From Bolinopsis microptera (taxonomy: Eukaryota > Ctenophora > Tentaculata > Lobata > Bolinopsidae), in the NCBI RefSeq assembly GCF_026151205.1, contig NC_087074.1, positions 9,581,226-9,645,225 of the forward strand: a stretch of 64,000 nucleotides of DNA, written 5' to 3'. The translations under genes were made by a program, and so were the position numbers. Within the stretch, counting starts at the first letter, position 1; every line of letters starts with the position of its first letter. This document shows, one piece after another, positions 4,859-56,667 of this stretch. The notes below the pieces were generated by a model that was not told the origin of the DNA, searched no databases, and saw nothing but the letters and a program-made list of their open reading frames with translations.

Positions 4859-6469
4859 TCAATGGTGAGCATGGTACTTGATGTGCTTTGCTAGTTTAAA
4901 GATACCATCGCTGTTTAGATGCACATTGTCTTCCCCAAATCTACTAAAACAAGATGATTTCCTAAATCCAGATCTATCACTAAACAAAAATCGATTGTTC
5001 TCTGTGGGTATAAAGCTAACAAACGAGTATTTGGAAGGAATCTTAGATAAAAAGATATTGATGTCATTTATCACTTTATTTCTAGCAAAACTTTCTCTTG
5101 GTAAAATGTTTATGATCTTAATTTTTGCAGCTGGAGCCCACGAGTGAAGTGACTGGATCAGATTATCAATAGAGCGATTGGTGTTATCAAGGGCCTTTGC
5201 TTTTCCTGTGAACTCATCGGGTGACAATAATCTATTCCTCATGTGTCGAGGACTCTCTAGGATTAAGTCCACATCATTAGTTCCACACATGAGTACGATG
5301 GTCTTCACATTATTTGCATCAATTGACCTCTTTCTTTCATCTGAGTGGAAGCGTTCATTGATACCGTTTGCAATGCCACCAGGATAGTGAAATACATGTG
5401 CTTCTTGATGAGCAGAGGATAGTTTTGTAGCATCTAACTTGGAGAACATGCTTGAGCTAACATACACAGCAGGGGATTTGCTTTTGACTGAAGCAGGGGG
5501 TATGGTGCTCTTATGAGTGATTTTGTTGGGTGATGATTTCCCTTTGATTGAGGGTTCAGTTTCTCTTACAGTAACGAAAGGCTTACTTGAGGTATCGGGT
5601 GGAGCAGACAAGGTTGCACTGCCATCAATCTGGCGCAGAGTAATGCTAATTCTCATGTCATCAGTATGGTCCTGAATAAGGCTGTGTTCAAAGCTGTCCT
5701 GAGATTTTCTGGTCATAATCATTATGTCGCCATGGGAGAGAGTAAGATTGGCAATGTGGACTTTGCTTTTAGACCTAAAACTGAGGACTCTTGTTGCTCC
5801 TAACGATATGGTGGAAATCATGGAGCCTGGTGATATGGACCTCTCATCATCTGAATGGAATGGTATTCCTTGCTTGCCATTTTCATACTTAGTGATCATG
5901 GCGCTGTTAAATTTCAGACTTGGGAGCTGGGAGCGTAAACGTTCTAAAATAGACTTTAATAAGGGATTGTCATTTAACGGCCTTGTGTTATGGAAGCCTC
6001 CATTGTAGGCATATGGGAAATCCCCATAGTATGCTACAGTCCTATTGTTAAACGTTTGTGTGTATTGTGTTTCCATATCCAACTTGAGAGTATCAACAAA
6101 CCTGAATACACCTCGACTCAAATCATGATATGGATTGATGGACTTACCCACAACGTTAACACTGGTTGAAGATTGTTTGTTAACATCAGAAGAATTCACA
6201 AGAGATGGGTTGCTATTAAGTTCAGTCACACTGCTAACTTCACAGTTTTGAGTTTCTGATTCATGTTCAGAGATAAGAACACTGTCCCCGCAAGAGAATG
6301 GAACCGCAATTTTGTCATGGCCTGAGCCTTGGGTAAGTTTGGTTAGACGAGCAATTTGTCTCCTCAAATTGTCGTTTTCAAGACTTAGTGATACACAGGT
6401 AGAACATTTTGCTTTTGCACTGTTAGGTCTGTCACGAAGGCTGTAATTTCTGATTGGGATACCGGACAT
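4859..6469 (-). CDS. LINE ORF1 protein with AlkB-like dioxygenase and SGNH hydrolase domains
   Basis: 536 residues, intact. Residues 20-45 hold a CxxC pair and a short Leu-rich coil. Residues about 115-282 look like an AlkB-type Fe(II)/2-oxoglutarate dioxygenase: HSD (H205, D207) and H262 as iron ligands, and RISITLR (R273, R279) matching the 2OG-binding Arg pair. Residues about 332-535 resemble the SGNH/GDSL esterase domain found in ORF1 of some CR1-like LINEs: YVSSSMF as the Ser block, the Gly of YPGG, GTND (396-399) and DNVHLN (D514, H517). The usual GDS is replaced by SSS, so the nucleophile assignment is uncertain. ORF1 proteins normally bind element RNA. A role of the AlkB domain in removing alkyl damage or RNA methylation is inference. 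ORF1 precedes ORF2 by 135 bp. Confidence 0.85.
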   Translation of the reverse strand: MSGIPIRNYSLRDRPNSAKAKCSTCVSLSLENDNLRRQIARLTKLTQGSGHDKIAVPFSCGDSVLISEHESETQNCEVSSVTELNSNPSLVNSSDVNKQSSTSVNVVGKSINPYHDLSRGVFRFVDTLKLDMETQYTQTFNNRTVAYYGDFPYAYNGGFHNTRPLNDNPLLKSILERLRSQLPSLKFNSAMITKYENGKQGIPFHSDDERSISPGSMISTISLGATRVLSFRSKSKVHIANLTLSHGDIMIMTRKSQDSFEHSLIQDHTDDMRISITLRQIDGSATLSAPPDTSSKPFVTVRETEPSIKGKSSPNKITHKSTIPPASVKSKSPAVYVSSSMFSKLDATKLSSAHQEAHVFHYPGGIANGINERFHSDERKRSIDANNVKTIVLMCGTNDVDLILESPRHMRNRLLSPDEFTGKAKALDNTNRSIDNLIQSLHSWAPAAKIKIINILPRESFARNKVINDINIFLSKIPSKYSFVSFIPTENNRFLFSDRSGFRKSSCFSRFGEDNVHLNSDGIFKLAKHIKYHAHH

Positions 6470-7202
6470 AGTTCAAATAAACACAATAATGCAAAGAATT
6501 CAGGATAGAGTCTAAAACCGATGCTACTGTTTATAGTTATTTAGTTGTTGATTACAGTACCTTTGCAGCAATTCAGAAGATGGGAATGAGTGGTGTCTGA
6601 TATTCTTTAGGTGATAGATGGGTGATAGGTGATAGATGGGAGTTAACAGCTCTTAAAAACGATGTCTGATAGTCTTTAGGATGTCTTTAAATAAACTATC
6701 ATGCAACAACCATTTACATCGACATACAACCTGTAATGGTTGCTACATTTGATTGAGGTGTTAATTCCCACTAGGGGTCCTCAATAAATGTAATAGATTT
6801 GTAGTGTTGTAATTAGTTTAAAACTGTAATTGATTGATTTGAAAGATTTCAATAAAAAAAAGTGAGGAATCTTGATATCAAGCTGGTTTAGTTGAGATTA
6901 AATTTATAAGCTGCATAATATTGTTTTCTATACCAGGCTTAAATGAGTATTTTTTAATGTCGAAGCATAGTATTTAAATATTAGAATTTGTTTATTTATT
7001 TATAATCTTATTGAGGAAATTCAATAACAACCTTAGTCATCTCCTGATGGCTAATATAATATTTTCCGTGCAATTTTCATGATCTTTTGTGCTAAATGTC
7101 CAATCTAGGTAGTGGATATTATACAACTGCTCTTTCTTCTAACAATAATACAATTATTTATCAAGTGTTTATGGGAATTGTCTTGTAAATTAACAAGCAA
7201 GA
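6470..7202. other. LINE 5' region and macoilin upstream region
   Basis: No gene. The part near 6470-6690 probably belongs to the LINE 5' UTR; it contains short imperfect repeats (GTGATAGATGGG near 6610 and 6633, and TCTGATA-TCTTTAGG near 6597 and 6666). The rest is AT-rich and must contain the macoilin promoter and 5' UTR, but no clear TATA box or initiator could be assigned. Confidence 0.4.
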
Positions 7203-24819: not shown

Positions 24820-24872
24820 CATAGATTAAAGAGCTTGATAATGCTCGATCAATCTTCGATGCTCACGCTGGG

Positions 24873-24958
24873 TTACTTGGCCGCGCTCAGCCTGTCATTC
24901 CGCCGAATTTCTTTTCCATATTCGTTTATGAACATAATAGCCTGGGGTGCCCAGGTAA
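24873..24958 (+). mobile_element. Miniature ~85-bp inverted-repeat element, copy A
   Basis: It starts TTACTTGGCCGCGCTCAGCC and ends GCCCAGGTAA. The flanks are an exact 8-bp duplication ACGCTGGG (24865-24872 and 24959-24966). The ends are imperfect inverted repeats about 28 bp long (CTCAGCCTGTCAT against CTCAGGCTATCAT in other copies). Confidence 0.9.
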
Positions 24959-25043
24959 ACGCTGGGTAACAAATGATCATGGTATAACACTCGATCATCG
25001 CCACACGTGCTTTTATTTTATGTTACACGTGCTTTCATTTTAA

Positions 25044-25084
25044 ACATAGATTCGGCGGAATGACAGGCTGAGCGCGGCCCAGTA
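25044..25084 (-). mobile_element. Miniature inverted-repeat element, partial copy B
   Basis: Only one arm is present (GGCGGAATGACAGGCTGAGC followed by GCGGCCCAGTAA). The other arm is missing or replaced by unrelated sequence. Confidence 0.75.
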
Positions 25085-25503
25085 ACTAGCTTGTATTTGT
25101 AACTGCCTGATCCGACCACTTTGTCTTTAGTTCTGTGGAGTGTGGTTGCTTTGCTGCGCGCGAGTTCACGAGTTGGTTTCGTTTACACGTCAATTGATCA
25201 TTCCTGCTTCCGACTCTATTAATTAACTTTTTGCAAACAAAGCTAAATGTTCGAATCTAATACGAATTCAAGTGTAAAGTAACATTTTTGTTTGTTATCT
25301 TCAATTTGGATGGATAAACTTTTTGAACTAATATTTAACGATTCTATTTAAAAATTCTAATCCAAATTGCAATTGACACTCTACACTTTATACTGCTTCA
25401 AGTACACTTTTATGAAACTCATGGACATGAACGAATCGTAGTCGAACTCTAGAATTGACACTATTTATATAAATCCCGGGATCAATCCAAGAAATTTCCC
25501 CGA

Positions 25504-25735
25504 GGTCGAGACGTCTGTTTAAATTAAACCAACTCTAGTACCACCACCAGCCAGTAACTTTTCCTGGGGAGACTTCCGGTTTTTTGCAAAGTGTTTGCTT
25601 TGTAAAAATAACGTTACCTCCTTAGTATAGGAGGAAAATTAGGGACATTGTAGATTTTGAGTTAATACCCCGAAAAATATGATTTTGGGCCGAATAAAAG
25701 GTTGCAGCTTTATAATTTTGCAAATAAATGTGGTT
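25504..25735. repeat. Satellite-like repeat, first copy (junction of two units)
   Basis: Positions 25504-25562 (GTCTGTTTAAATTAAACC, ACTCTAGTACCACCACCAGC) run directly into 25563-25735 (CTTCCGGTTTTTTGCAAAG, AACGTTACCTCC, AGGAGGAAAATT). The same two blocks occur at 26800-26868 and 26535-26705 but in swapped order. This fits a head-to-tail junction of a repeat unit of about 333 bp. Confidence 0.65.
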
Positions 25736-25860
25736 GTCACGACTTCATGGCTGAATTCAGATTTTAAACGCGTACACGCAGCGAGCTTTACGTTGACATA
25801 CGTTGCATGCCACTTTTCGCGCGTGATACGCAACATGAATCAAAGATTCGGCGGAATGAT

Positions 25861-25941
25861 TTACCTGGGGACCTCAGGCTATCATGTTCATAAACATGAA
25901 TAGAGATTAGGCGGAATGACAGGCTGATCGCGGCCCAGTAA
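25861..25941 (-). mobile_element. Miniature inverted-repeat element, copy C, nested in another copy
   Basis: TTACCTGGGGACCTCAGGCT to GCGGCCCAGTAA, flanked by exact 9-bp CGGAATGAT (25852-25860 and 25942-25950). The flanking sequence is itself the right arm of an older copy (GGCGGAATGATAGGCT, ending GGCCAGTAA at 25971), so the element has inserted into its own family. Confidence 0.9.
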
Positions 25942-26004
25942 CGGAATGATAGGCTTAGCGCCGGCCAGTAACACTTTACGCATTTTACACCTGACATTTA
26001 TTAG

Positions 26005-26186
26005 TTACCTGGAGAGTCGGAGATCCCAGGCTATTATGTTCATAAAAATTTGAATAAAGATTCGGCGGAATGACAGGCTGAGCGTTACCTGTACTGCATA
26101 CTGGGGACCTCAGGCTATCATGTTCATAGAGATTAGGCAGAATGACAGGCTGAGCGCGGCCCAGTAAGCTGAGCGCCGCCCAGTAA
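26005..26186 (-). mobile_element. Miniature inverted-repeat element D containing nested copy E
   Basis: The outer copy D (26005-26084 plus 26176-26186) is split by copy E at 26085-26167. E is flanked by an exact 8-bp duplication GCTGAGCG (26077-26084 and 26168-26175), a motif inside the element's own arm. This is a second case of self-targeted insertion. Confidence 0.88.
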
Positions 26187-26237
26187 ACATTTAGTACTTC
26201 TTAAGATGCAACATTTATGACATTACACCATGTTGTA

Positions 26238-26335
26238 GCGCGATGCACTACTGGGTCGCGCGCGCATCCAATAATGCTTCTCGCAACCACAGAGCAGATC
26301 GGCGAGATGCGAAGGATTGACATCGTCAATCAATA
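26238..26335 (+). repeat. GC-rich dispersed repeat ending in a small hairpin, copy 1
   Basis: AGCGCGATGC, CGCAACCACAGAGC, AGATCGGCGAGATGCG and ATTGACATCGTCAAT occur in this order; the last is a perfect 6-bp-arm hairpin. A related copy is at 27797-27920, and the terminal part alone (GAAGGATTGACATCGTCAAT) recurs at 23170-23190. Confidence 0.7.
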
Positions 26336-26386
26336 CACCATGTATCACACATGTCTACAAAATAACATCGCACTATATTATATATG

Positions 26387-26439
26387 TTACTGGGCGGCGC
26401 TCAGCCTGTCATTCCGCCGAATCTCTATTCCCCAGGTAA
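26387..26439 (+). mobile_element. Miniature inverted-repeat element, copy F (53 bp, internally deleted)
   Basis: It runs from TTACTGGGCGGCGCTCAGCC to CCCAGGTAA and lacks most of the right arm. The flanks are an exact 8-bp duplication TATATATG (26379-26386 and 26440-26447). If the deletion preceded insertion, both terminal ends alone are enough for transposition. Confidence 0.85.
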
Positions 26440-26534
26440 TATATATGTTGATACAAAAAGGAAGTGATACGTTTTCAATGAAGTGATAAGTTCCCAGGAA
26501 CCCTGACCGGATGGGGCTTAACTTTGAAAGTAAA

Positions 26535-26868
26535 AGAGTTGGAGACTTTCGGTTTTTTGTAACATGTTCCTCTTTTACATTTTAAAAGTAACGTTACCTC
26601 TCCAGGAGGAAAATTCAAGACAACGTAATTGTTGAGTTATCTCAAAATCTCCAGAAAAGTCCCCTTTCGGTCCGATCAAAAGTTTGCAACTTTAACTTTG
26701 CGGATTCCTGTACTCTGGTTGGCTGAATTGTGTCACGTGTTAGCTGCTTGAACATTGGAATGCGCCACGCGTGCAAATCATGCTTGTTGTCGCGCGCGAG
26801 GTCGAGCCGTCTGTTTAATATTAAACCAACTCTAGTACCACCACCAGCCGGTAACTTTTCCTGGGTTT
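26535..26868. repeat. Satellite-like 333-bp unit, second copy
   Basis: 26535-26705 matches 25563-25735 and 26800-26868 matches 25504-25562, with about 95 bp between them (sharing GGCTGAATT with the first copy). Together they define one full unit in permuted order relative to the copy at 25.5 kb. Confidence 0.6.
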
Positions 26869-27101
26869 TCAATGTAACAATAATGTAAATGTAAATAATG
26901 TAACAATAATGTAAATATAAGTTATATTTTGCATTCATTCAATGATAAATTGAATTTGAACTTAAACCACGATTCAGTTTACTAAAAATAAACTTGGGGA
27001 ATATTTTGATTGACAATGCGAAGCAAGAATGCTAGTTTGCGCGGCGTGTCGAAGCAGCGAAGTCTAGTCCTCCAAGGAATATTATAATGTTTTATTGTCT
27101 A

Positions 27102-27742
27102 CCTTACAAGACATATTTATGTGGATCATAATTCTGGGGATCGGAATTATATTTATGGGGGATATATATATATATATTATGGGGGAACGAAAATATGGGG
27201 ATTTTTTTCAGAAATCCCCAAATTTCGTACCCCAAATTAAATTGTCGCATTTTCTGTTTTCACGCTAAATTATTTCAGAGAAATCAAAATCAGTTTTTGA
27301 TGGAATTTTTTTAAATCGTGAAAAACTAAATTAATTAAAAATCATTCTCGTCGTTTAAATCGTCTTCATCGTCGTCTCTTTCACCTTGAGTCTGCTCACC
27401 GGTGTAGTCCCAGGTGTATGCCTCCCTCAACAGGAGTTTGAGCTTGTCAATTAAGTCTCCCCTACTCTTGAATGTGAGTAGGGGAGACCAGTATTTTCTA
27501 TTCAGTAATTTTTATACTAAGTAACTTTCTATTTACCTGAGAAATGCGTATCCTTGTCTCACAAAAAAAGGTAAAACAACTTATTTGACAAATTCACCTC
27601 AAATTAGCCCTATTTAAGCCAATTACATACAAATTGATGTGTGGGATTTTGAAATGGCGGCCACAATTTTGGTAGTACGAAAATATGGGGATTTTTTCCA
27701 AAAATTCCCAAATTTCGTACCATATAAATATGTCTCGTAAGG
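27102..27742. mobile_element. TA-flanked DNA transposon remnant (641 bp)
   Basis: The ends CCTTACAAGACATATTTATG and, inverted, CCTTACGAGACATATTTATA form TIRs of about 23 bp with two mismatches, each preceded by TA as in Tc1/mariner-like elements. A subterminal inverted block (CGAAAATATGGGGATTTTTT) occurs at 27193 and 27679. Inside lies the C-terminal end of a minus-strand acidic ORF (27335-27453) and a perfect 13-bp hairpin (27455-27488). Confidence 0.7.
27335..27453 (-). pseudogene. C-terminal remnant of an acidic protein, probably of the surrounding transposon
   Basis: On the minus strand a short open stretch reads LIDKLKLLLREAYTWDYTGE, then an acidic tail containing RDDDEDDLNDEND, and ends at TAA 27337-27335. 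The upstream part is missing. It resembles the end of a transposase-type protein by context only; no domain can be named. Confidence 0.4.
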
Positions 27743-27796
27743 TATATAATGATCTATGATGATTTAATATAGTAGAATTTATGTATGAGTATTTCT

Positions 27797-27920
27797 TGTA
27801 GCGCGATGCGTTACTGTGCCGCGCCGCACACTCAATGAGGCTTCTCACAGCGACTAGCTAGATCGGCGAAATGCGCTACTGTGCCGCGCCGAGCTGCCAT
27901 GAATTGACATCGTCAATTAA
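27797..27920 (+). repeat. GC-rich dispersed repeat, copy 2
   Basis: AGCGCGATGCGTTACTGTGC, GGCTTCTCACAGC, AGATCGGCGAAATGCG and ATTGACATCGTCAAT match the copy at 26238-26335. It is inserted just outside the TA-flanked element. Confidence 0.65.
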
Positions 27921-28794
27921 GAGTATTTCCATTAGGACAAATGGTTGATAATAATAATAATTTAAACTTTAATAGATTATAGTGGCACAACAACTAAAAA
28001 TGCACAGGTGTGCCACAAAAACAAGTCAGGATACAAAAAAAGCTGAAAAGCAATCCACATTTAGGTTCCAAACCATAGAAAATTGTAAAGACTTGATACA
28101 CTAAATTACAAGGTTAAGGGTATGCACTTAACAGTAGAAACGTTGAAAAAATAGTAAATTAATTAATATCATAAGCACGTTTAAAAAGAAACGTTCTCAG
28201 ATAGACTTTAAAAGATTCCAGGAGAAATAGTTGATTTTAGTGAGACATGGTCAGTTTCTCAATGATTTTAGAAATTTTCTACTTACAGTAAGCAATGCTG
28301 AGTGGAAGAAATGAGGTACCAAAACGCTTGAGGCTAATATAGTAGCTCATTAAAATCAATTATTCTAATATAAGCTGGATGGTGCAGCCTTATTCGAGCC
28401 ATCTTCTGAAAACATTTTTGGTTCTGATCAAGAGTCTTACTTCAGATATTACCCTTGAACCCAGTTATGCGACCATTCATAATTAAGTTGTTATTACTTT
28501 GTGTTTAAAATTGAGATCCTCTGCCTACTGTAAGAGAAACGAGTACTCAAATTTGCTGCTAATGGCTGGAAAGAATATTGAAGTTGTTACAAAGTATTGG
28601 AATTGTCCTCAAATGGGGTATGAGCAACTCGCTAGAGTGTGGAGGTGATAATTCACTATAATTTAAATAAAACGAAGGTTATTTGTTTCCAACCCTCAGA
28701 TGTCTCTGCCATTCCTGATTGATTCAGATGTTAAGTATTCAAATTTCTGAAATAGGAGTCAGTAGACTCCGTCCAAATAGATAATACGGGATCT
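27921..28794. other. AT-rich sequence, possibly decayed retroelement
   Basis: No intact ORF. The minus strand reads as a stop-ridden stretch with hydrophobic blocks, compatible with an old LINE tail, but no diagnostic motif remains. Confidence 0.3.
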
Positions 28795-28925
28795 TAGTAT
28801 AGTAAAACCCTGATTTACCGAAAACCCAGTTTTACTGCAGCCATTTATTTTCCTCAAATAGGGCATGCATAATGTGAACAAACAAAACCCAAATCTCTGC
28901 GGTAAATCAGAGTTTTATTGTACTA
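28795..28925. mobile_element. Pogo-like MITE, 131 bp
   Basis: The termini TAGTATAGTAAAACCC-TGATTTACCG and the reverse complement of the other end (TAGTACAATAAAACTC-TGATTTACCG) are 26-bp inverted repeats with three mismatches. The AAACCCNGATTTACCG core is typical of pogo/Tigger-derived MITEs. No coding sequence. Confidence 0.75.
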
Positions 28926-30581
28926 CTGCTCCTTTGGCTATGAAGGACAGACAGCTATCCATTTACCACTTAATACAAATTATATATATATTTTCGAATT
29001 CATAAGTTTAGGCTCGGCGCCGTCATTGTAACACGTGACTAGCACCGCGCTGATAGAAATTTATGATTGAGATTAATCTTTGAGTATATAGTAAAAAACG
29101 TATTTTACATAGCATATCCAATTTTCACGAGTTTATTATCGGATGTTTAAGTTTAACTATTTTTATTAGTAAAACAAAATTTAGTAAAACAAAATTTTTA
29201 TTTACCACAAAACAATCAATACATATTTAATATTATTATACATTTATAAATAAATCTAAATTTAAATTCGGCTATATACACAATACACAGCCCACCGCGC
29301 AGACAGCCACACATTGCTGAGAGATTCTCAGGTGCAGATGTAAGCGCCGCGCGCGAGGTTTGTTATCTTACAATTACATGTCACGATATATTATTATTAT
29401 TAATTATCAGAGAATTTTAGATATTAATATTATGATATTAATATTCATTGTAATATGGGAATCAAATTTAAATTTCGTATATGCTGATGAATACTTTCTA
29501 CACGAAGCTGTATCTTCCTGATGTTGGCAATGTGATATCTAGCCTGGATAAACTTGATTGAGAATTAATTAGTTTATTTGCTAAACAGCCAGTGCTCCAT
29601 CTAAGTAGCTTAAAAGGCACTCTTTTTACTGCAACATAATGCCATTCCAGGACTATTACCTCGAATAATGACATATTCGACAACCAACACATCTCCTCTA
29701 TTGTCAACTTTGCAAACTGCACCAAACATTTAATTGTGCCTGAGGAGCTGGACCAGACTGGTGTGACATAGCAACTACTCACACATCGTATTAGTTCACC
29801 TTTCTCTTCCACACCCAGTTGCCACAAGTTAAGCATTCATACACGACACATCTTACAACACTTACCATCATCCTACATTACACATTCTGATTCCGAGGTA
29901 GGCAAAGCATTCACATGCTATCCTCTCGTGGGCTATCCAGGCCCAGCCTCTCCTTAAAATTTTAATTGAAAAAATTGAAAAACACACTGCCAACAATGCA
30001 GCACATACCTTAAATGAGTATGATATATCCAAGTTTTTAATTGAAGAACATCCAACACAAAATCAAGTTCTATATGTCTTTTATGAATTTATTCTAAAAG
30101 AATTGATCTGTGTCTGCCAACTAAATTGTAGTATATGTCAGAAAAGGAGGCTCTATTCCGGGACACCTTTATTATCTTGTATATTATCATTTTGTTTGTC
30201 TGATGAGTCTCATACATAGATCTCTTGTGGTCATCATCTATTTTTTTATGTTTTGTTAGAAAACCTGCTAACCTTTCTTGGATATCTTCTTGTTAGGTGT
30301 ATCTGCCTTATTTAGTCGGGATTTAACTTGTAGTTATTAACTTCCGTTTTTACCTCCGTCCAAGGCGAGATGCACGATCTCTACTGTCATTTAGGTATCA
30401 TTTACAGCTGTGCATAGGGTTAAATTTAAATTATTTAACCTTTTGGTGCTGTATAAAAATAACATTAATTTATTATTATTATTATTATCTAGTTTACATC
30501 AGTAATAAATGGCCTGAAATTAAAATGTGTAGATAACTGACATTTTTTTGTTTGAATGGTTTGCATGGTATATTACCCTGT
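28926..30581. other. Intergenic, nothing recognised
   Basis: AT-rich with a GC-rich patch around 29290-29360. A 112-codon minus-strand open frame at 29498-29836 has no recognisable domain and is not supported as a gene. An ATT simple repeat lies at about 30470-30488. Confidence 0.5.
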
Positions 30582-31003
30582 CCAGGCCTGGGGATCATGC
30601 GCTTTAGTACTGGACCTGGCGTTAGGGTGGTGGGTCATATTTTTTTCCAAAACACAGTTAATAGTTTTGTACTAAGTGGTGGGTCTGCTCCTCATTTCCC
30701 AGAAAAACAGATAGTACATGGTACTAAGGGGGGTGTCCAACCCAAAAAATCACAGTTAGTATCGTGATTTCTCAACAGTTAGTACCACAGAAGGGTGTGG
30801 GTGTCTTAATTATTATCCGAAAAAACAGTTAGTACCGCGAAGGGGGTGGTTGGGTCTTTTGAGAATTTGAGACAATTTTGTAAGAAAAGACAATTTTATT
30901 ATTTATCACCAATTCAATAAATTTGGAATTTTTCAAAATTCCAAGATAACACTTTGTCGACGTCACGTCCAAAACTTAGTACCTGATTCCCCCGCCAGGC
31001 CTA
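30582..31003. mobile_element. TIR element with internal ACAGTTAGTACC repeats
   Basis: Ends CCAGGCCTGGGGATCATG...TTTAGTACTGGAC and the inverted GTCCAAAACTTAGTACC...GCCAGGCCT form imperfect TIRs of about 32 bp. Between them a motif of the form ACAGTTAGTACC-(n)-GAAGGGGGTG is repeated at least four times (30650-30860). No ORF. Probable non-autonomous DNA transposon. Confidence 0.6.
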
Positions 31004-31625
31004 AGCCATGGACTACAACGGATTTGATTTTTTACAAAACAAATCTTCAACTTATTCTTAGGAAACAAATTTCATTACTATGTATGACATAGATATAGAT
31101 TCGTAAATTTAGGTTTAGAAAATTAGCTCGATGAGATTTTTTGATATTAAACAACTGATCAACTTATTTTCAAGACACAAATTTCATTTCTACATGACAT
31201 CTAAGATTTGTCAAATTTAGACAGGTGATCTATCTCTATTTTTCTGGCATGTATCAGTGATACTCTGGTTATTGGATGTAATTCTATGTTTTTGGGTAAA
31301 ACTTACATATACTAGATTTTTCATTAATGCGTGGATTGGAAGAAATTATAATATATTTTCCTCAGCCTTTGAAATACTTCGTTTGGAAATCGTTTTTACC
31401 ATAGTGGGGAAATTACATTTTGCTAATGACAGCATCGTGAATAGGTATATCGTCAATAACTCTAATTGTCGGGACTTTCCCTTCTGTTTTTGCTTTTGCA
31501 AATTTTGATCGCTATATTGTTTTATGTCACCCCTCAATCTGCTAGTTGCCCACTATGGTTTTTTTGGTGTGTTCACTGACATTAACTCTGGTCAATGGTG
31601 GGACCCTGGTATAATTTGGGTAGGG

Positions 31626-31694
31626 CAGTAGAACCCCGATTTACCGTGGAGTTTGGGAGAAAGGAAATAGCCGCAGTAAATCGGGGTTTCACTG
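31626..31694. mobile_element. Pogo-like MITE, about 69 bp
   Basis: CAGTAGAACCCCGATTTAC at one end and the inverted CAGTGAAACCCCGATTTAC at the other: nearly perfect TIRs with the CAGT start of pogo-type elements. It lies 180 bp upstream of the tomosyn start codon. Confidence 0.75.
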
Positions 31695-31876
31695 TAGTAT
31701 CGGTAGTTATTTCCTCTAAATTTACGAATTATTATCAAAATTCTGCTCCCTATCGTTTTCTCTGCCCTAGAAATTGGTTCTGTTTTAGAAAACAGTCACT
31801 GATCACTTTTCCACTACAGCTCTAATGTGAGAAATGAAGCTGAGATTGACCTACGTTTCCTTTTTGAGATGAGAGG

Positions 31877-46025
<14,149 letters not shown>

Positions 46026-48136
46026 ACGGACAATTCTTTGACATTGACCGTTCAGCTCGCATTTATTTCGTGCCATGATTGGTGAGAAGTTTTTGTTCTT
46101 TCCAGCAACATCATACATGCTAAAACGAATTCGTTAAAAATGGTCATCGCCTGGTTAAATTCAGAGTTTTCTAATTTCACTCAATCACACTAATAATTTA
46201 ATATATATTATATAACTTTCACTCTTAATAATAATTATGATGTTAATTTGTTAATACTCTAGGATTGAATAATAACCCAATTTTAACTTTTGCACATAGT
46301 TATCACAATTCACATATCATTAATTAAGTTTAATCTATGTATTTATTTTGAATGTTTGCTTATTGTTAATTAATATTACGTTGATTGTATGAATTGAATT
46401 TGTCGGTAGAAGGTGCATGTTCACCTTTCATTGTTATAATTGATCATTTAAAACATGATCATACTTAATTCGAGTTGTATTTTCATGATTGATAATTTAT
46501 TACTTTGTTTAGATATAGGTACATAATATGTCGAGTATCGTCGATGTCAATATCTTTCGCGCACGATATCTTGCTCCGTCCTCTACATTTTAAATATGTG
46601 AATTTAATTTATTTTATCAGTCAATGTTACAAGCATTCAGCAGCTGAAATAAACAATTTGTGTTTCATGGATATTGGATATCTCACTAAGTTTCAAAGTT
46701 GTGATAAGATGAATCAAGGGATTAGGGGCTGTATAATATATTTTTGAAGTATTCAGACAAGAATGTAAGGACTAGGTCATCCATAGGTTACCCACCTTTA
46801 GATACCTTCCTCCACTATTGCACCAAAATTCAAAAACCAAGATCGTTTGCCGTGTCCATAAGCCATGTTTTAGTTTTTTTAATTGACCTACAACCAGAAT
46901 GAAACTTCTATTCATAGTCGAGGATCTATCGTTACTGAATTAGTATATTCTGGGCGCCTCGCTTGAAACAATATCCGCTTCCTCAATCCTCATCCACGAT
47001 ATTCATAGAACTTATATTGAAACAAACCTCATCCTTTACTAGACACAAGCAATCTATGGATGGCCCTTTAACCCATTATAGTTTAGTTAACTTATTCGGA
47101 GATTAATCTATTTATCAAAAGGCTGTCAGAGTCCAGCCTGTAAAATCGTTTTTGATAATTATTTAATCATTAACCACATCACATTGTTAACCAGACTCAT
47201 GCTGCTTAATTAAAAGCGTCCTCACTAATATTGTGATTTCAATGTTGAAGCTAATATATTTATTATTTCATTTTAATTATTTATTATTGATTAGATGGTG
47301 AGATATATAATCATTATCAAGATGAATTATTTACCGGTTGTTTGTTTTGACACGTGACAATAATATGTTCGAACATTATACTGTATTCTCTAATATCATG
47401 TTGTTATCGGTTTACTTTGTTTGTTCCGTCATCACAGACTTTTTAATTGAGCTAGTAAATAATTTTACCGATCGAGATAGAAACAACAAAAATTGAAATT
47501 CCAATCTTAGTTTTTTATCAGCTTGATAAGTGATAAGTAAATTAAAATCAATGATATATTAGCAGTAAAATCCCCACATTCACTAAGCATTGGAGGTCTG
47601 TTACTGGAAGGAGGTGGACCGTATGTTTTCTGACACGTTACAAAGTGTACCAAACTTCCAGCATGGACCGATCAAAACTTCATGTCACGTGCCTATGAAA
47701 ATAATGTTCACCTCATCAGCATCCAGATCTGACAGTTAATTGATAAAAGTTAATTGTTGAGAAGCATCGGCAAGGTATGATTATACTTATAACTATAAGT
47801 TAGCAATGCAATGCAACTGAATAATAATAGAATGGTAATTTGTGTAAAGCGTTTTACGAGTCCTTATATAACCCAACTATTATGAGTTGAATACTCGCCC
47901 TTCTTTCTCATCCCTTCTGTCAAGTATATCCGCCGCTCTTTTTTCAAACCGGTGTATCCAGTTCCTGTACGTTTAATTCCTGTACGTTTTTCCTGACACT
48001 TCCCACTTGTTCGTCATCATCTGTAAATTAGAATTTGAAAGGGAATCTCTTTTCTTGGCTCTGTAACAATAGTTTGTACGTACAAAGTACAAAGCTTTTG
48101 AAAGACGTATTCCACTTTTTATGGGGGTCTTATGGT
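46026..48136. other. Tomosyn 3' UTR and intergenic sequence
   Basis: AT-rich, with no recognised gene. Small open frames (for example 46505-46747) lack any family signature. The GPCR 3' UTR should occupy the right-hand end. Confidence 0.5.
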
Positions 48137-49300
48137 CTAGTAAATACTGACATGTCTAGTAAATACTGACATGTGTATTTGATATATACCTGTAGATAAT
48201 GAGGCGGCGGTCCTGGAGGTCAGCAGAGATATTGGTGCCACAGGAAATAGCTTCGATACAAGGAATCTTCGGAAGCTACTCATTGTCAGAGTGCAGATAT
48301 AAACATTTGACATCCTATTTAACATTCCCACGAAAAAGGCTATTCTATAAAATTCATGGTGAAACAGGCCCGCAGGATCTTTATTGACATAACGTTTACT
48401 TATGTTATAGGCAAACATAGGTAATTTAGAGCCGCAGTAGATAACAGCAATTAGAGCAACTGTTAGAGCTTCTTCCCAGGAGACGCTTCCTCGGGAAAGT
48501 AACTGTCTTCTAGCTCCAGGACGTCGTGCCACAGAGCCTTGTGCCCAAGTAGGGTTAGGGTCAAGGTCAGGGTTTAGGTTAAGATAATAACTGTCACTGT
48601 GGAGTAGAGCCTTCCGGGGCAAGACGACGTGAACCCCTCGGGCACGTTCTCTTGATCTTTTAGCTGCAACTATGTCTTTCAAGATAGAAATTGTTGTAGC
48701 AACAATGATGATGTTCGGAACAATAACATTAATGGTTGAGATACTGGGCAGTATCCTTTTGTATATACTTGAGTTAAACCCATAGTTACAAGAATATGTT
48801 CGATAACCAAAGGCAGCATCATCCTTATCCACAGCTAGCATTATAAATGTCGTGATAGCAGGTGGAATCAATACAACATAGCATGCTTGGTGAGACATCT
48901 TCTTAGTCCAATTTGAAGATGGCTTAGGATACTTGAGAAGTAGCCATTCACAGGTGGTCAACACCGCGATTAGAGACATCCCTGACAAGTTAGACAGATA
49001 GCCCAGGTAAGACGTAATACAGCAAATGGTGTCCCCAAGGAACCAAGAGTCTGCAATCAATGAGGCAGTTGTGGGAATACCACAAAAAGTAGTATGAGCC
49101 AAATCAATGACAGTAATGTGTTGTATAATTGCCACTATTAATTTGTTCAATTTAAAAGCGTCCTTCTGGAAAGATGCACAGAGGATGAGACTATCTCCGA
49201 TGATGATTGATATCAGTAGGAAGACATGGTATCCAACCCACGAGTATCTCTCAGCACTGTTATTAATCCCAAGAGTTGAAGTGTTGGTGAAGTTTACCAT
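48137..49300 (-). CDS. Rhodopsin-like G-protein-coupled receptor, divergent, intronless
   Basis: 387 residues in one exon. The N-terminus has three N-glycosylation sequons (NFT, NTS, NNS). Seven hydrophobic segments can be placed: about 23-45, 55-78, 93-116, 140-160, 186-205, 282-302 and 318-340. A conserved disulfide pair is likely (Cys in DTICCITS at the start of TM3 and in TYSCNYG of loop 2). The E/DRY position reads CEW, TM6 has CGSKLP in place of CWxP, and the NPxxY region reads SNVYI, so activation motifs are strongly changed. Loop 3 carries an Arg/Pro-rich insertion (about residues 215-275). Ligand and coupling cannot be predicted. Large families of intronless, lineage-specific class A receptors are typical of cnidarians and other invertebrates. 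Confidence 0.8.
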   Translation of the reverse strand: MVNFTNTSTLGINNSAERYSWVGYHVFLLISIIIGDSLILCASFQKDAFKLNKLIVAIIQHITVIDLAHTTFCGIPTTASLIADSWFLGDTICCITSYLGYLSNLSGMSLIAVLTTCEWLLLKYPKPSSNWTKKMSHQACYVVLIPPAITTFIMLAVDKDDAAFGYRTYSCNYGFNSSIYKRILPSISTINVIVPNIIIVATTISILKDIVAAKRSRERARGVHVVLPRKALLHSDSYYLNLNPDLDPNPTWAQGSVARRPGARRQLLSRGSVSWEEALTVALIAVIYCGSKLPMFAYNISKRYVNKDPAGLFHHEFYRIAFFVGMLNRMSNVYICTLTMSSFRRFLVSKLFPVAPISLLTSRTAASLSTGIYQIHMSVFTRHVSIY

Positions 49301-50251
49301 TCACGGTAATTCGGCTTGCTCTTTTGGCGAAAAAGCTTCCTTCTGATCCTAAAATTAAATCAAGATAGTTGGTTGCAAACAATCATCTTTTAAAATCATT
49401 TTAAAGAACTGCTGAATACAGGTAACAACTATTACATAATATGACACTACAATTTAAGAATATCGTGCATCTTTGATATATTCTATATATTCCAAAGAGC
49501 TTCGCATTAATGCAAACATTGAACAATGCCATGCTATATGGGAATTTAAGAACCAAACTTAATTATTAATGTAAAACTGAACTCATTAAACCTGCTTAAA
49601 CTAAACACAATCAAAAATTGCTACAGATCCGGACTTAATAAATATTATGGCCCCTAATAGATAAAACGTTATATAGGATATAAATGGAAAATAAAAACAT
49701 CGCCATAGGATAATAGGTTAATTAATCATTAACTTCAGCAGAATTAGCCCTACCCCAATCTCATAAAGCATTGTAAAATGACATAATAATTACGAAATTA
49801 ACTGCTGTAATATCATAATGAAGTATCAACAATATAAAACGTTTTTGTAATTACTAGGAAGGTACTGCGAAAACGATTTGATTATTGTGCCCTATAAGTA
49901 TTATAATGCGTTGTAATGTTTTTATGAAGCTACAGCTAGCTCAAGCTGCTATAACTATAAGTATAACATATGAACACTTTTTTATAGTGCTAGCATTTCT
50001 GCCAAATAATGCTGTAAAATAACAGAAATATAAAGTATGATCAATTCGTCAAAGTGGCAATTGTAATATTTAGTATTTTAATATCATAGTTGAATTTAAG
50101 CCAAATTCAAAGCACTACTAGTACTATGGAATAAAGTTTGAAGTTTAAATAAACGGGATTCCCTTTTATCAGTTTTTCTTCAAGATTAGTGTAATTTGTA
50201 GTGATCGGAGAGCTAAACTTGATATTCAGCTAGATAACATGAACAATCACA
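49301..50251. other. GPCR upstream region, AT-rich
   Basis: No genes or repeats recognised in this stretch. Confidence 0.5.
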
Positions 50252-50335
50252 GCGAGTGTTTCGATCCCGTGGTTCAGTTTTGTGCTGAGTGAGTGACTCA
50301 CTCAGCACAAACTGAACCACGGGATCGAAATTCGC
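50252..50335. repeat. 84-bp near-perfect palindrome
   Basis: Arms of about 40 bp (50252-50294 and 50296-50335) are reverse complements apart from two small differences near the outer end and one extra T; a single G (50295) is the centre. The arm contains TCGATCCCGTGGTTCAG and GTGCTGAGTGAGT. It directly abuts the MITE that starts at 50340. Probably a hairpin-type element or an inverted duplication made at insertion. Confidence 0.92.
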
Positions 50336-50339
50336 TTAA

Positions 50340-50437
50340 GGGGTCGTTCACATATTACGTAATCAGCCGAGGGGGGGTTTCAAATGATTACGCTAGTGTA
50401 ATTTTGACACAATAATAGTAATATGTGAACGACCCCT
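50340..50437. mobile_element. Harbinger-like MITE, about 98 bp
   Basis: Termini GGGGTCGTTCACATATTAC and GTAATATGTGAACGACCCC are perfect 19-bp inverted repeats. TAA flanks both ends (a 3-bp target duplication), as in PIF/Harbinger elements. No ORF. Confidence 0.82.
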
Positions 50438-50759
50438 AACAGCTCATTCTGAGCGAGTAATGGAGTATGAGGCTATCAGCAGTGCCGCAGTGCAGCATTT
50501 TCCCGAGCAAGTCACAGATACTCATACACAACAGATGGACAGAGCCCATCACATGGCTTATAGTGTTACCAGGAGACACGGGCCTTCTTAGTTCTTCTGT
50601 GTATAAAGAAGCCATGAGGCCGTTATAGTGAGGATAGCAATTCCACCGAGTTTAAATGACAAGGCGAGACTTTTAAAAAGGGACTAGACTAAACAGAGAA
50701 ACCTGGAGGAAAGCTGTTGCTCTAGGATCGCGACTTTGCAGAACGGTTCATAATTATAC

Positions 50760-50844
50760 TTACTGGGTCGCGCTCAGCCTGTCATTCCGCCTAATATAAT
50801 CATATTCATGTTAATGAACATGATAGCCTGAGGTCCCCAGGTAA
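50760..50844 (+). mobile_element. Miniature ~85-bp inverted-repeat element, copy G
   Basis: TTACTGGGTCGCGCTCAGCC to GGTCCCCAGGTAA, flanked by an exact 8-bp duplication AATTATAC (50752-50759 and 50845-50852). Same family as the cluster at 24.8-26.4 kb. Confidence 0.92.
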
Positions 50845-52077
50845 AATTATACAACACACCGCTGCATACTAACTTGGTTAAACACTGCTTTTAAGAAGTA
50901 AAAGTATGGACTATTAGATTTAGATAAAACACAGGGACAATTGACTGTAGTTTGATACATTTATTATGTGAATAGTATCTCCAAACCTGCGATCCCCATT
51001 TAATAGGCTCTCACGTGATGTGTACACGATCCCGTAGAAAATCTACTAGACTGACATCTCACTTAATAAAATGACGGAGATTCCATCTTTATGGATAATT
51101 TAAGAAGCAGTCAACCCCCTCCTTCATCCATGATCGCAATTACAGTCCGTTGTAGAGTGCATGACATAAAAGTGTCCCTTTGTTTCATTCAGTCTATATC
51201 GTGATAAGATTGTCTATCATGGCGATCTCTATCTATTGTCGATCGATGAAAGAATCAAATAAGCGCGCGCTAGCTAGCTAAGCTATGCGCGTCTTGTTTG
51301 ACAGTAATAACAATTTGTGCTTTTTACATTAGTTCCGGCTAAAGTAGACCCTATCGGCCCACGGGTGACGGAAATTTGCCACCCTGTTTCCGTTATTTTG
51401 TAGAGATGTGCGCTTGACTGAACTGTGAAGTCAGAATTCTCATGACCGAACAAAGTTTTCCTGGCATGTTACCAGTTTCTACGGACGGTGACATGATCTG
51501 GTGGTCAAAGTTTCCATTCTTATCAATAAGCAGCCATTGGATATTATGTTATTCTCTCAAATTTACGAATAACAATCAGAGAGGAGTAAAAATACTAGAG
51601 ACCAGACTTTTGGCAGTGGCATCGCATTATAGCTAGGTTATTGAAGTCACATTTAAGACTGACCATTCCGGGTGAATAGACGTTAGGATTATAACGTGCT
51701 AGTTTCATTAAAAGTCGTGGACATACGCCAGAATAAAATTATATTACTGCGAAGTAAGAATCTTTGGCAAGGGGCACATTTTCCAAATACTCTGTACGTA
51801 GGTTAGTTAACTTTTGGTAACATTTTCCTAATATTTAGTCCTGGCTAATACCCAAAGTGAATGAAAGCAGTGGCCCCAGAAGCTCTCCAAACTATCTTAC
51901 GATTACGAAGCTGTCGAAACTACCATAGCAGATTACACTAATCTTTGCATTATTTTTATTAGATATTGAATAGATTTAAGCTGGAATGTTTGATTTCAAT
52001 AGCACCGATAACCGTTTGTTTGTTACCAGAATTTTGGAAAAGCTTCGCTGTATTAGAATTGTATAGCAGTCTGGTTC
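50845..52077. other. Intergenic, nothing recognised
   Basis: Mixed-composition sequence with a short alternating GCGCGCGCTAGCTAGCTA stretch near 51262. No supported gene. Confidence 0.5.
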
Positions 52078-52083
52078 TTTATT
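52078..52083 (-). terminator. Poly(A) signal of the Hsc70 gene
   Basis: AATAAA on the minus strand, about 155 bp downstream of the Hsc70 stop codon. Confidence 0.55.
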
Positions 52084-52235
52084 GCTAACAGAAGACAAAA
52101 TGAAACAGTCCAATACAATTTTGTTAGAAGAGTTAAACTTTTACAAATAGAAATTCAGGAACCGTTGAAGGTCAGTTTAAAATAAAACACAAAAATAACT
52201 ATCTTTAAAAGTTTAGTCCTTGTCGACACAGAGGA

Positions 52236-55026
<2,791 letters not shown>

Positions 55027-55033
55027 GATTTAT

Positions 55034-55449
55034 CTGAAATAAAATGGAGGTGAGGAACAAGTTCTCATTTGAGCTGTGAAATGTCAAAGAAATTGAGGAA
55101 GCTTAAGGTGATTGGAATTGTGACACTGGCTGGAAGAATACAGACGATATAGGCCAGTCTGAAGTTCGCAGCAGTGCTTAAAGTTTTGATTATAGTGCAG
55201 TGTGGACTCTACTACTAGTTTAAACGATCACGCAGAAATTCGGATCTGCACCGAAATTTGGTCTTAGCTACCCTAATTTTAAGATAAAATCTGATAAATG
55301 GGGAATTGTAATATGGTTGTAAAATGCGTTAGGGTGCTTCGCTATCCTATCCATTCCATTGAAGTATCTCAAAAATTGGAGCTGAGACCAGGTCACAGAA
55401 CTAGATTATCACAAAGAGCATGCAAGATAGATGAAATTAGAACACGTAC
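55034..55449 (-). other. 5'-UTR intron of Hsc70
   Basis: On the minus strand a donor CAG|GTACGT (55450/55449) and an acceptor TTTCAG just 7 bp before the ATG bound a 416-bp intron. A similar leader intron is typical of HSPA8-type genes. Confidence 0.6.
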
Positions 55450-55522
55450 CTGATAGTTGGGTATTGGGTACAAAACAAAGTAAACAGTAATAAATTAATG
55501 TGCAGAACGACAGCCCGAGTGA

Positions 55523-55534
55523 CTTTATTTATAT
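55523..55534 (-). promoter_or_regulatory. TATA box of Hsc70
   Basis: ATATAAATAAAG on the minus strand, about 75 bp upstream of the putative leader donor and 60 bp downstream of the heat-shock element. Transcription would start near 55500. Confidence 0.6.
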
Positions 55535-55593
55535 GAAAAGTTAAGATCTGGAGATCTGTCTAGAAATTGCGCGTATCTTCAGTGTGTGCTTGA

Positions 55594-55606
55594 GAAAGTT
55601 CGAGAA
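55594..55606 (-). promoter_or_regulatory. Perfect trimeric heat-shock element
   Basis: On the plus strand GAA-AG-TTC-GA-GAA: three alternating nGAAn pentamers with exact spacing, the consensus site of HSF1. It lies about 60 bp upstream of the TATA box of the minus-strand Hsc70 gene. Confidence 0.8.
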
Positions 55607-55983
55607 ATATAGCGCCTCTTCCTCCCTGTGAATTTTCTTGATGTTACAGGGTTACTTGTGCAAGAGGCGATGGCTTTTGCGCAAGCGTTTCTACGTCTTG
55701 AAGATTACCATCCGAACCATGCTTCAGTCTGCGCGGCTTTACATTTCTTGCTGACTTGGTTTAATTTTCATCATCTCAATTTGCTCCAGTTTAACATAAT
55801 TTACTTACAATATAAACTTTTTTAACACAACTTAATTGTTACATAATTTGTGAATACTAAATCGAATAAATATTTTATATACGGTCAAAACAAAATTGGA
55901 AATTTATTGTACACCCCGCGCCGCGCTCATTGTAAATAGTTGATACATAAAAAATATATAATATCAAATATGTATATCTTATA

Positions 55984-56063
55984 TTACTGGGCCGCGCTCA
56001 GCCTGTCATTCCGCCTAATCTCTATTATGAACATGATAGCCTGAGCACTGAGGTCCCAGGTAA
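55984..56063 (+). mobile_element. Miniature inverted-repeat element, copy H
   Basis: TTACTGGGCCGCGCTCAGCC to GAGGTCCCAGGTAA. It is the closest copy to a family consensus on the left arm. No exact 8-bp duplication directly abuts it, although TGTATATC occurs just outside both ends (55971-55978 and 56065-56072). Confidence 0.85.
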
Positions 56064-56359
56064 ATGTATATCATGAGTTTAAATACATAACTTTATAGGA
56101 TTCTTTCTTTTATAAAGGCCACAATGTAATGAAAACTTTATCGATCATACTTGCTCTATCCAAAGCCCTTGCGCTTGCAGTAGCGCCCGAAGTGGCGCGA
56201 AAGCACATGGTTATGGGTTAGGTGAACGATCATACTATCACTATATTAGGCTCCAAGCTCGCTCCCACTAAATCGCTCGCCCAAATTTAAATTTTTTTTG
56301 TAAAAAGGCACTACTTAAGGTATAAATGAAATGTAATTTTTTTCAGTGTATTTTAGGAA

Positions 56360-56667
56360 GCTCTCACTAATTCGCTCGCCCAAAAATCATCACGTAACTT
56401 TGGCTTTTATGGTTTTACAGCCGAACAAAACGGTTTTACATAAATCCTTATCCCATGCAGCTATTCATGACCGGACCCTGAAGAACAATCGAATTCGTGT
56501 TTAACTTTATCTGGGGACCTCAGGCTATCATGTTTATAAATAAAGGAATTAGGCGGAATGACAGGCTGAGCGCGGCCCAGTAATTTTAACTAGCCTGTCA
56601 CGTGACCAAAATAGTAATTAGCCCATAGGCATAACTCTTCAGGAAAGCATTTTTACTTTATGTCATG
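56360..56667 (-). repeat. Copy of the telomere-like dispersed repeat, interrupted by a miniature element
   Basis: The plus strand reads CACTAATTCGCTCGCCC, ACAAAACGGTTTTACATAAA, ATCGAATTC, ACTAGCCTGTCACGTGACC and GGAAAGCATTTTTAC, in the order of the reverse complement of 23645-23920. The telomere-like core is reduced to CCTTATCCCATG. A miniature element (56506-56584) is inserted between ATTCGTG and CTAGCC. Confidence 0.8.
56506..56584 (-). mobile_element. Miniature inverted-repeat element, copy I, with related empty site
   Basis: TTATCTGGGGACCTCAGGCT to CGGCCCAGTAA with flanks GTTTAACT/TTTTAACT (8 bp, one mismatch). The homologous repeat at 23.7 kb has an uninterrupted GTTTTACT at the same place, a related empty site. 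Confidence 0.88.

Follow-up and report, generated by a model that had tools for sequence, protein, structure and literature searches.

A family of short inverted-repeat elements in the Bolinopsis microptera genome combines constant ends and short target duplications with a centre of its own in nearly every copy (112 distinct centres among 126 sampled copies). Simple copying of a small mobile unit would not be expected to produce this pattern, and the centres were probably made independently in nearly every copy. We tentatively favour, short of conviction, the reading that the copies are scars of excised longer elements, the middle of each having been rejoined independently by end joining.

Copies in the window and in the genome

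In the analysed window, the whole stretch of 64,000 nt, the family is present at all nine places named by the original prediction, one of them (25044) being a left end only and another (26005) an interrupted host copy (Table 1). The inverted ends are TTAC(C)TGGG, as had been stated, and seven copies are complete or nearly complete. Five carry exact duplications, four of 8 bp and one of 9 bp, and these are the five originally reported: ACGCTGGG, CGGAATGAT (9 bp), GCTGAGCG, TATATATG and AATTATAC. The duplications GTTTAACT/TTTTAACT and ATGTATATC come in addition to those claimed. The first had been scored as none by the automated test, which used a start one base off, and the second is separated from the left end by 5 extra bases, no duplication being found directly at the ends. 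The host copy at 26005 showed no clear duplication belonging to itself. The 53-bp copy has lost its centre and most of its right end, its right half consisting of CCCCAGGTAA only.

Table 1. Members of the main family and of families B and D in the window, with their duplications.
Position	Strand	Feature	Duplication or remark
24873-24958	+	Main family, complete copy, 86 bp	8 bp, ACGCTGGG, 24865-24872 and 24959-24966
25048-25085	-	Main family, solitary left end, outer 38 bp (place 25044)	No right end found
25832-25860	-	Main family, older copy, first piece	Interrupted by the insertion 25861-25941
25861-25941	-	Main family, complete copy, 81 bp, nested in the older copy	Exact 9 bp, CGGAATGAT
25942-25971	-	Main family, older copy, second piece	Starts with the second CGGAATGAT
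26005-26084	-	Main family, host copy, first piece	Hosts the insertion 26085-26167
26085-26167	-	Main family, complete copy, nested in the 26005 host copy	Exact 8 bp, GCTGAGCG, 26077-26084 and 26168-26175
26168-26186	-	Main family, host copy, second piece	
26233-26333	+	Family D member (TTGTAGCGCG...CGTCAATCAA)	Exact 9 bp, TACACCATG
26387-26439	+	Main family, 53-bp copy	8 bp, TATATATG, intact
27796-27920	+	Family D, second window member	Exact 9 bp, GAGTATTTC
50760-50844	+	Main family, complete copy, 85 bp	8 bp, AATTATAC
55984-56063	+	Main family, complete copy, 80 bp	9 bp, ATGTATATC, 55970-55978 and 56064-56072, by eye
56151-56226	+	Family B member (TTGCTCTA...GGTGAA)	9 bp, CGATCATAC, 56142-56150 and 56227-56235, by eye
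56507-56583	-	Main family, complete copy	GTTTAACT/TTTTAACT, 7/8 match, by eye

The genome-wide consensus search that had been proposed, run with a 32-mer of the left end and allowing up to 2 mismatches, revealed an abundant family, with 3,620 matches in the 264.65-Mb genome against 0 for the reversed pattern, used as a control in the same genome. Duplications were scored at the flanks of 126 complete copies (65-141 bp long), swapped flanks giving the chance expectation. They are exact in 87 copies, with a length of 8 bp in 63 (expectation 0.58), 9 bp in 23 (0.20) and 7 bp in one (0.02), and carry one mismatch in 14 others (0.23). The duplications put forward originally are hence borne out in 101 of the 126 copies, allowing at most one mismatch, and absent from 25, while the strict length of 8 bp has to be widened to 8 or 9 bp, exact 8-bp duplications being common. 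With 3,620 matches against 0 and duplications far above the swapped-flank expectation, chance is excluded. Recognised duplications are nearly intact, with 14 mismatches in 823 bp. The sample leaves out 13 left ends for which no right end was recognised. Among these are the 53-bp window copy, three complete copies that have an indel in the right end or close to it, and two or more left ends truncated by the locus end. Counts of pieces with a single end in the window and the loci read (20 left-only and 6 right-only versus 68 paired) are not decisive, five left-only pieces being counted twice since the locus L001 is part of the window.

Constant ends and one-off centres

MITEs are defined as non-coding elements shorter than about 600 bp, with inverted ends, target-site duplications and a high copy number, and their copies are expected to share an interior derived from one or few source copies. 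By its length, inverted ends, duplications and 3,620 left ends, the family resembles MITEs; a shared interior was not found, even among the 42 copies having 52 identical end bases, which display 39 distinct centres. In this set, the duplication is exact in 36 copies and has one mismatch in 3 more, the median edit distance between centres is 13 nt for a mean centre of 33 nt, and identical centres were found in 4 of 861 pairs. Likewise, 38 copies with the other common right end contain 32 distinct centres. Many centres, which are rich in AT, are palindromic, with stems averaging 6.1 versus 4.7 in shuffled centres (significant at P<=0.05 in 25/125), and some resemble short tandem expansions. Regarding the ends, sub-terminal hairpins were significant in 2 of 8.

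The positions of the joins are narrow: 42-46 bp of the left end are retained in 107/126 copies and 34-44 bp of the right end in 102/126. Among joins without filler, 25 of 48 have microhomology of 2 nt or more, compared with about 19% when the same reference tails are joined bluntly at random. Fillers of at least 5 nt occur in 42 copies, that of the copy L104 being 64 nt long; 25 of them were tested for a template, 8 resembling nearby element sequence (P<=0.05) and 17 having no significant template. None of these 42 copies shares its centre with any other sampled copy, versus 24 of the 84 copies with a shorter filler or none, the commonest shared centre (4 copies) being a join at a 3-nt microhomology. 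Such a restriction of sharing to simple centres is what recurrent joining would give. Of the 152 facing end pairs that carry a duplication, every one combines a left and a right end of one family; cross-family chimeras and left-left palindromes were sought among them and none was found.

Identical centre strings less than 500 kb apart amount to 5 pairs versus 0.35 by chance in one slice of the genome and to 1 pair versus 0.25 in a second one, a clustering that could come from short copies transposing locally or from local duplications. Two pairs of copies (L012/L013 and L093/L095) look like duplicated insertions, both recent, and have identical centres within each pair. In a third pair (L047/L127), each copy sits at the end of a family D copy, and the abutting flanks are similar (82% over 62 bp) while the centres are different; these may be separate insertions or a single one whose centre changed after insertion.

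Four more short families (A to D) show a similar pattern in small samples. Distinct stretches between the end seeds were found in 18/18 rows for family A, 15/15 for B, 16/16 for C and 18/19 for D. Exact 9-bp duplications occur in 7/15 rows of family B and 8/19 of family D, whereas the duplications of family A and of the main family are mostly of 8 bp. Centre stems in family A are weak (4/15 at P<=0.05). For the family B member of the window, the automated scan scored no duplication, the right boundary having been set a few bases short.

Search for a parent element and its transposase

Among 365 candidates, 150 scored matches to hAT transposases were obtained, and several hAT groups of the genome align along their length. 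In 30 hAT loci from these matches, the repeat boundaries read begin with CAG, TAG or CAAG. A hAT partner was rejected: TTACTGGG/CCCAGTAA are exact in 3 of the 30 loci, unpaired, and where printed, the family's end does not follow. Merlin-type domains gave 58 matches in the genome, and the four loci inspected (~2 kb each) were likewise rejected as partners, having no TTAC(C)TGGG ends. The P-type transposase PF21787 had 0 matches in the genome, a weak test as the controls gave no matches either.

A longer form does recur. L051 and L155 have ~105 bp in common beyond the left end and differ in their left flanks, and L155-L158 all begin like L051 just past the left end, three of them sharing only ~9-10 bases before they differ. 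L051, the one followed further among the 13 left ends lacking a right end, was rejected as the long parent, since the 20 kb read downstream held no further end of the main family flanked by the same duplication, and a complete parent with both ends was not recovered. The long transposase-encoding element with the same inverted ends, the search for which had been suggested, was thus not found among the 30 hAT and 4 Merlin loci or at L051 (20 kb).

L051 adjoins a block with matches to DUF6589 (E 2e-5 and 7e-5, below the curated cut-off), DEAD (E 7e-9) and Helicase_C (E 4e-4, below the cut-off), and neighbours a family D left half. The block (L059/L060) ends near a 9-base piece of a second family D left half, which is only a lead because it consists of that 9-base match within the final 20 bases of the stretch read. 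A scan of this stretch for TT...AA boundaries with 8- or 9-bp duplications and similar ends on either side of the block gave nothing convincing as termini.

Origin of the centres

According to the excision-scar reading, a longer element would insert and make an 8- or 9-bp duplication, and its transposase would later excise it by cuts about 46 bp in from the left terminus and about 38-44 bp in from the right one. The host would then seal the two stubs, separately for each copy, through alternative end joining of a polymerase-theta-like kind, and the apparent MITE family would be mostly a field of excision scars. We infer the parent element, its transposase, the excision event and the end-joining enzyme from what the sample displays, namely constant ends, duplications, one-off centres, narrow joins, microhomology and some templated fillers. 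Several points count against this reading. No transposase known to us leaves stubs of about 40 bp on both sides, and the reading demands thousands of excisions from which few parents have survived. Moreover, most tested fillers have no significant template, 24 copies share a simple centre with another sampled copy, in some cases between unlinked places, and the 53-bp window copy has its join outside the usual range.

A close layout is that of P-element excision in Drosophila, whose junctions comprise the 8-bp duplication, 17 nt of one end, a microhomology or T-nucleotide insert, 17 nt of the other end and the duplication, repair involving SDSA and end joining with polymerase theta (PMC2895639). 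These scars share with the present copies the flanking 8-bp duplication, the fixed end stretch, microhomology or templated joins and differences between events, but retain 17 nt per end versus about 42-46 and 34-44 here; the match is one of sequence anatomy, no excision having been observed here.

Self-moving MITEs with a centre remade at each cycle are a serious explanation that we nevertheless hold to be unlikely. The centre would be remade by abortive gap repair, refilling from the sister chromatid on both sides until synthesis stops inside and end joining seals the gap, or by a break and rejoining while the transposase holds the ends, and only products keeping about 42 and 36 bp would stay mobile. 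All the data on centres and ends fit this explanation equally, the narrow join positions possibly reflecting sequence required for mobility. It also accommodates short copies nested in short copies with exact duplications, which excision scars explain too, and the excess of nearby copies with identical centre strings in one of the slices. Gap repair combined with end joining is documented for P elements (PMC2895639). However, gap repair on an 80-bp template would be expected to be often perfect or else to stop anywhere, whereas most joins fall within a few bases, and no copies with a common complex centre were found among the 126 sampled. A MITE family issued from gap repair would be expected to descend from a single deletion product, or a few, and to have a common interior; here interiors are rarely shared. 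MITEs arising by abortive gap repair, an idea of Rubin and Levy (1997) as cited in PMC4161770, are otherwise similar in being short and non-coding, with inverted ends, duplications and high copy number. Microsatellite-associated MITEs have been described (PMC8449440), and the titles and abstract openings of the papers found by literature searches made no mention of MITEs with a different centre per copy.

Ordinary MITEs whose AT-rich hairpin centre, once inserted, mutates quickly through slippage and hairpin deletion appear still less probable. The AT-rich palindromic centres, those resembling tandem expansions and the pair L047/L127, if it is one insertion with two centres, would agree with such a process; against it, the duplications are nearly intact while identical-end copies differ by a median of 13 centre edits, the two duplicated insertions keep identical centres, though both are recent, and fillers as long as that of L104 are not slippage products.

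Finally, the hAT-type MITE family originally proposed is very improbable, despite 8-bp duplications in most exact cases and many hAT transposases in the genome, because the ends differ from the hAT signature C/TAGNG and from the boundaries of the hAT loci read, and because 23 of the 86 exact 8- or 9-bp duplications are of 9 bp.

Concerning other superfamilies, Merlin elements (IS1595-type) also make 8-bp duplications (PMC10045372) and have domains in the genome, but the four loci of the 58 matches lack the family's ends in the ~2 kb read of each. AcademH elements, helicase-encoding Academ DNA transposons, generate 9- or 10-bp duplications (same source). The likeness lies in the 9-bp duplications of families B and D and in the DUF6589 and helicase block beside a family D left half, and the difference in the mostly 8-bp duplications of the main family and family A, the block ends that were not recovered and the DUF6589 matches below the curated cut-off. 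It is conceivable, although we would not count on it, that at least five high-copy 'MITE' families are excision scars, a transposase, possibly AcademH-like with a helicase, cutting long elements some 40-50 bp inside their ends and each scar being a junction joined separately and in part templated.

Significance

To our knowledge, the distance inside the ends at which elements of the Academ group are cut is unreported, and the copies, if they are excision scars, would reveal it for the transposase responsible. Were every copy the record of a separate break and its repair, a single genome would hold thousands of natural end-joining junctions, making germline repair outcomes readable in an untouched animal, and MITE-like repeats would have a new route of origin without amplification. 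Under the excision-scar reading, the centres could serve as natural barcodes for thousands of independent excisions, comparable to V(D)J junctional diversity. Repeat annotation could then take scars for mobile families.

Main-family repeats in the window and the genome

The original prediction placed the ~80-bp repeats with TTAC(C)TGGG inverted ends at nine positions of the window, and all nine indeed belong to one family; as copies they need amending, one being a solitary left end and another the host of a nested copy. The five target duplications reported with them are all exact (four of 8 bp, one of 9 bp), and two more window copies, read by eye, carry imperfect or offset duplications. In the whole genome (264.65 Mb, the window being C3:9581226-9645225), a search for the left 32-mer that tolerated two mismatches gave 1,781 forward and 1,839 reverse matches, and the reversed pattern used as a control gave none.

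Regarding the surroundings, the window holds genes for Hsp70, a Lgl/tomosyn-like protein and a rhodopsin-type receptor. The open reading frame adjoining the LINE-type reverse transcriptase bears an AlkB-like 2OG-Fe(II) oxygenase domain (E 4e-18), followed by a stretch that looks like an SGNH-hydrolase; to our knowledge, an AlkB-type domain would be unusual in the first open reading frame of a LINE.

Every recognised complete copy was taken from 100 listed exact matches to the left 32-mer (all in the first 14.4 Mb of contig C1), from 21 places found by similarity search, the window among them, and from other loci obtained by then, giving 126 copies; 13 further left ends were set aside. A 14-Mb part of a single chromosome supplied most of this sample, and selection was for a perfect left end, so that by design 107 of the 126 copies carry the exact 32-mer. 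Duplications are exact over 8 bp in 63 copies, over 9 bp in 23 and over 7 bp in one, have one mismatch in 14 and are absent from 25, while flanks paired across different copies yield by chance 0.58, 0.20, 0.02 and, with one mismatch, 0.23. Since the recognised duplications, each permitted at most one mismatch, differ at only 14 positions in 823 bp, the copies carrying them are fairly young.

Constant ends, variable centres

While the ends of these repeats are nearly constant, their middle is variable, with 112 distinct centres among the 126 copies. Even the 42 copies whose left 32 and right 20 bases are all the same, 36 of them with exact duplications, have 39 distinct centres (mean length 33 nt, median edit distance 13 nt, 4 identical pairs out of 861), and a second end-identical set has 32 among 38. 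Measured against reference tails drawn from the same copies, the left-end match stops at 42-46 bp in 107/126 copies and the right-end match at 34-44 bp in 102/126, with a mode of 38 bp (44 copies).

Among 48 filler-free joins, 25 have microhomology of at least two bases, against 19% for random blunt joins of the same references. Extra bases at the other joins range from 1 to 64 nt; the 64-nt filler, in the centre of copy L104, is mostly without significant resemblance to the element. Fillers of at least 5 nt number 42, and the template test covered the 25 flanked on either side by a clear tail: eight resemble nearby element sequence above shuffled fillers (P ≤ 0.05; about one expected), and 17 have no significant match to it by this comparison. 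Centres also form longer stems than shuffled ones (mean 6.1 versus 4.7; P ≤ 0.05 in 25/125), and some joins, judged by eye, resemble an inverted copy of the adjoining end, e.g. TTCGGCGGAAT; these look like what snap-back synthesis is expected to leave.

Descent or recurrence of shared centres

No centre with a filler of at least 5 nt (42 copies) recurs within the sample, against 24 centre-sharing copies among the 84 with shorter or no filler, and the centre shared most often is a join at 3 nt of microhomology. For two pattern slices, 88 distinct strings were counted in the 100 places listed of 341 and 75 in the 100 listed of 171. For the second slice, listed places on contigs C3, C4 and C5 include five pairs of identical strings within 500 kb (0.35 expected; none of 2,000 shuffles as high), and for the first, one such pair (0.25 expected, not significant). 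Such neighbours may be either local duplications or true siblings.

Support for stable centres is thin, because only three sampled pairs of loci have flanks matching right up to the element, of which two keep their centre: L012/L013, with 300 identical bases of left flank, and L093/L095, inside a larger repeat with few differences. The centres of the third pair (L047/L127) differ; its left flanks agree at 82% over 62 bp and both copies sit at the same point of a family D end, as either separate insertions or alteration of the centre after insertion would explain.

Possible excision scars or remade mini-elements

A break mid-way between the paired ends, followed by alternative end joining, would produce the observed anatomy. 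Among published cases, P-element excision in Drosophila comes closest: it leaves 17 nt of each end beside the 8-bp duplication, the stubs being joined with microhomology or templated inserts and polymerase theta being important (PMC2895639). A mobile mini-element whose centre is remade in every cycle would account for the same data. We prefer to read the main-family copies as excision scars, because joins fall within narrow ranges and no complex centre occurred twice in the sample.

Regarding longer forms, two loci (L051 and L155) have ~105 bp in common past the left end and different left flanks, and a longer form thus recurs at least once. At least five more places among the matches listed start like L051, and the three of them that were read (L156, L157 and L158) diverge from it after ~9-10 bases. 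No complete parent element was recovered among the loci read.

Other short families and a candidate partner

These loci and the window also hold four other short families (A-D), which likewise combine 5'-TT...AA-3' ends and duplications with a variable middle. Distinct stretches number 18/18 (A), 15/15 (B), 16/16 (C) and 18 among 19 rows (D, two rows being one copy found twice), a distinctness easier to reach than in the main family, the samples being small, matching loose and each stretch comprising all between the end seeds, with parts of the ends and sometimes other inserted repeats; by eye, differences concentrate in the middle. Exact duplications are of 8 bp in 9 of 16 family A copies with flanks, of 9 bp in 7/15 (B), of 8 and 9 bp in two each of 15 (C), and of 9 bp in eight and 8 bp in one of 19 rows (D). 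Where facing ends are paired and carry a duplication (152 cases), they are always the two ends of a single family (main 108, A 13, B 11, C 9, D 11).

Other features of the window and of two further loci (L059, L060)
Feature	Position	Strand	Basis
LINE-type reverse transcriptase ORF (RVT_1, endonuclease) and adjoining ORF	window 1943-4639 and 4859-6472	minus	domain matches
Family D member	window 26233-26333		TT...AA ends, variable middle
Family D member	window 27796-27920		TT...AA ends, variable middle
Family B member	window 56151-56226		TT...AA ends, variable middle
DUF6589/DEAD helicase/Helicase_C block	L059:3390-10000 and L060:1-9570	minus	domain matches

The hAT-like origin first proposed finds no support in the loci inspected, where several hAT groups align over ~800 bp at 96-98% identity, unlike the variable middles of the short families. 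Merlin and P were not supported as partners either, on four loci read of 58 Merlin-type matches (~2 kb each) and a weak domain test for P (PF21787, no matches). The L059/L060 block has two weak matches to DUF6589, which we take to be a mark of Academ transposases, one to a DEAD helicase and a weak one to Helicase_C. Positions 444-494 of this stretch hold a family D left half, and a 9-base piece of a second, inverted one falls within the last 20 bases of the stretch. The block may be an AcademH-like transposon, ~19.6 kb long and bounded by family D ends; AcademH elements, as described in PMC10045372, encode a helicase and make 9- or 10-bp duplications. For family D, an AcademH-like partner is a lead; for the main family and families A-C it may be one by analogy only.
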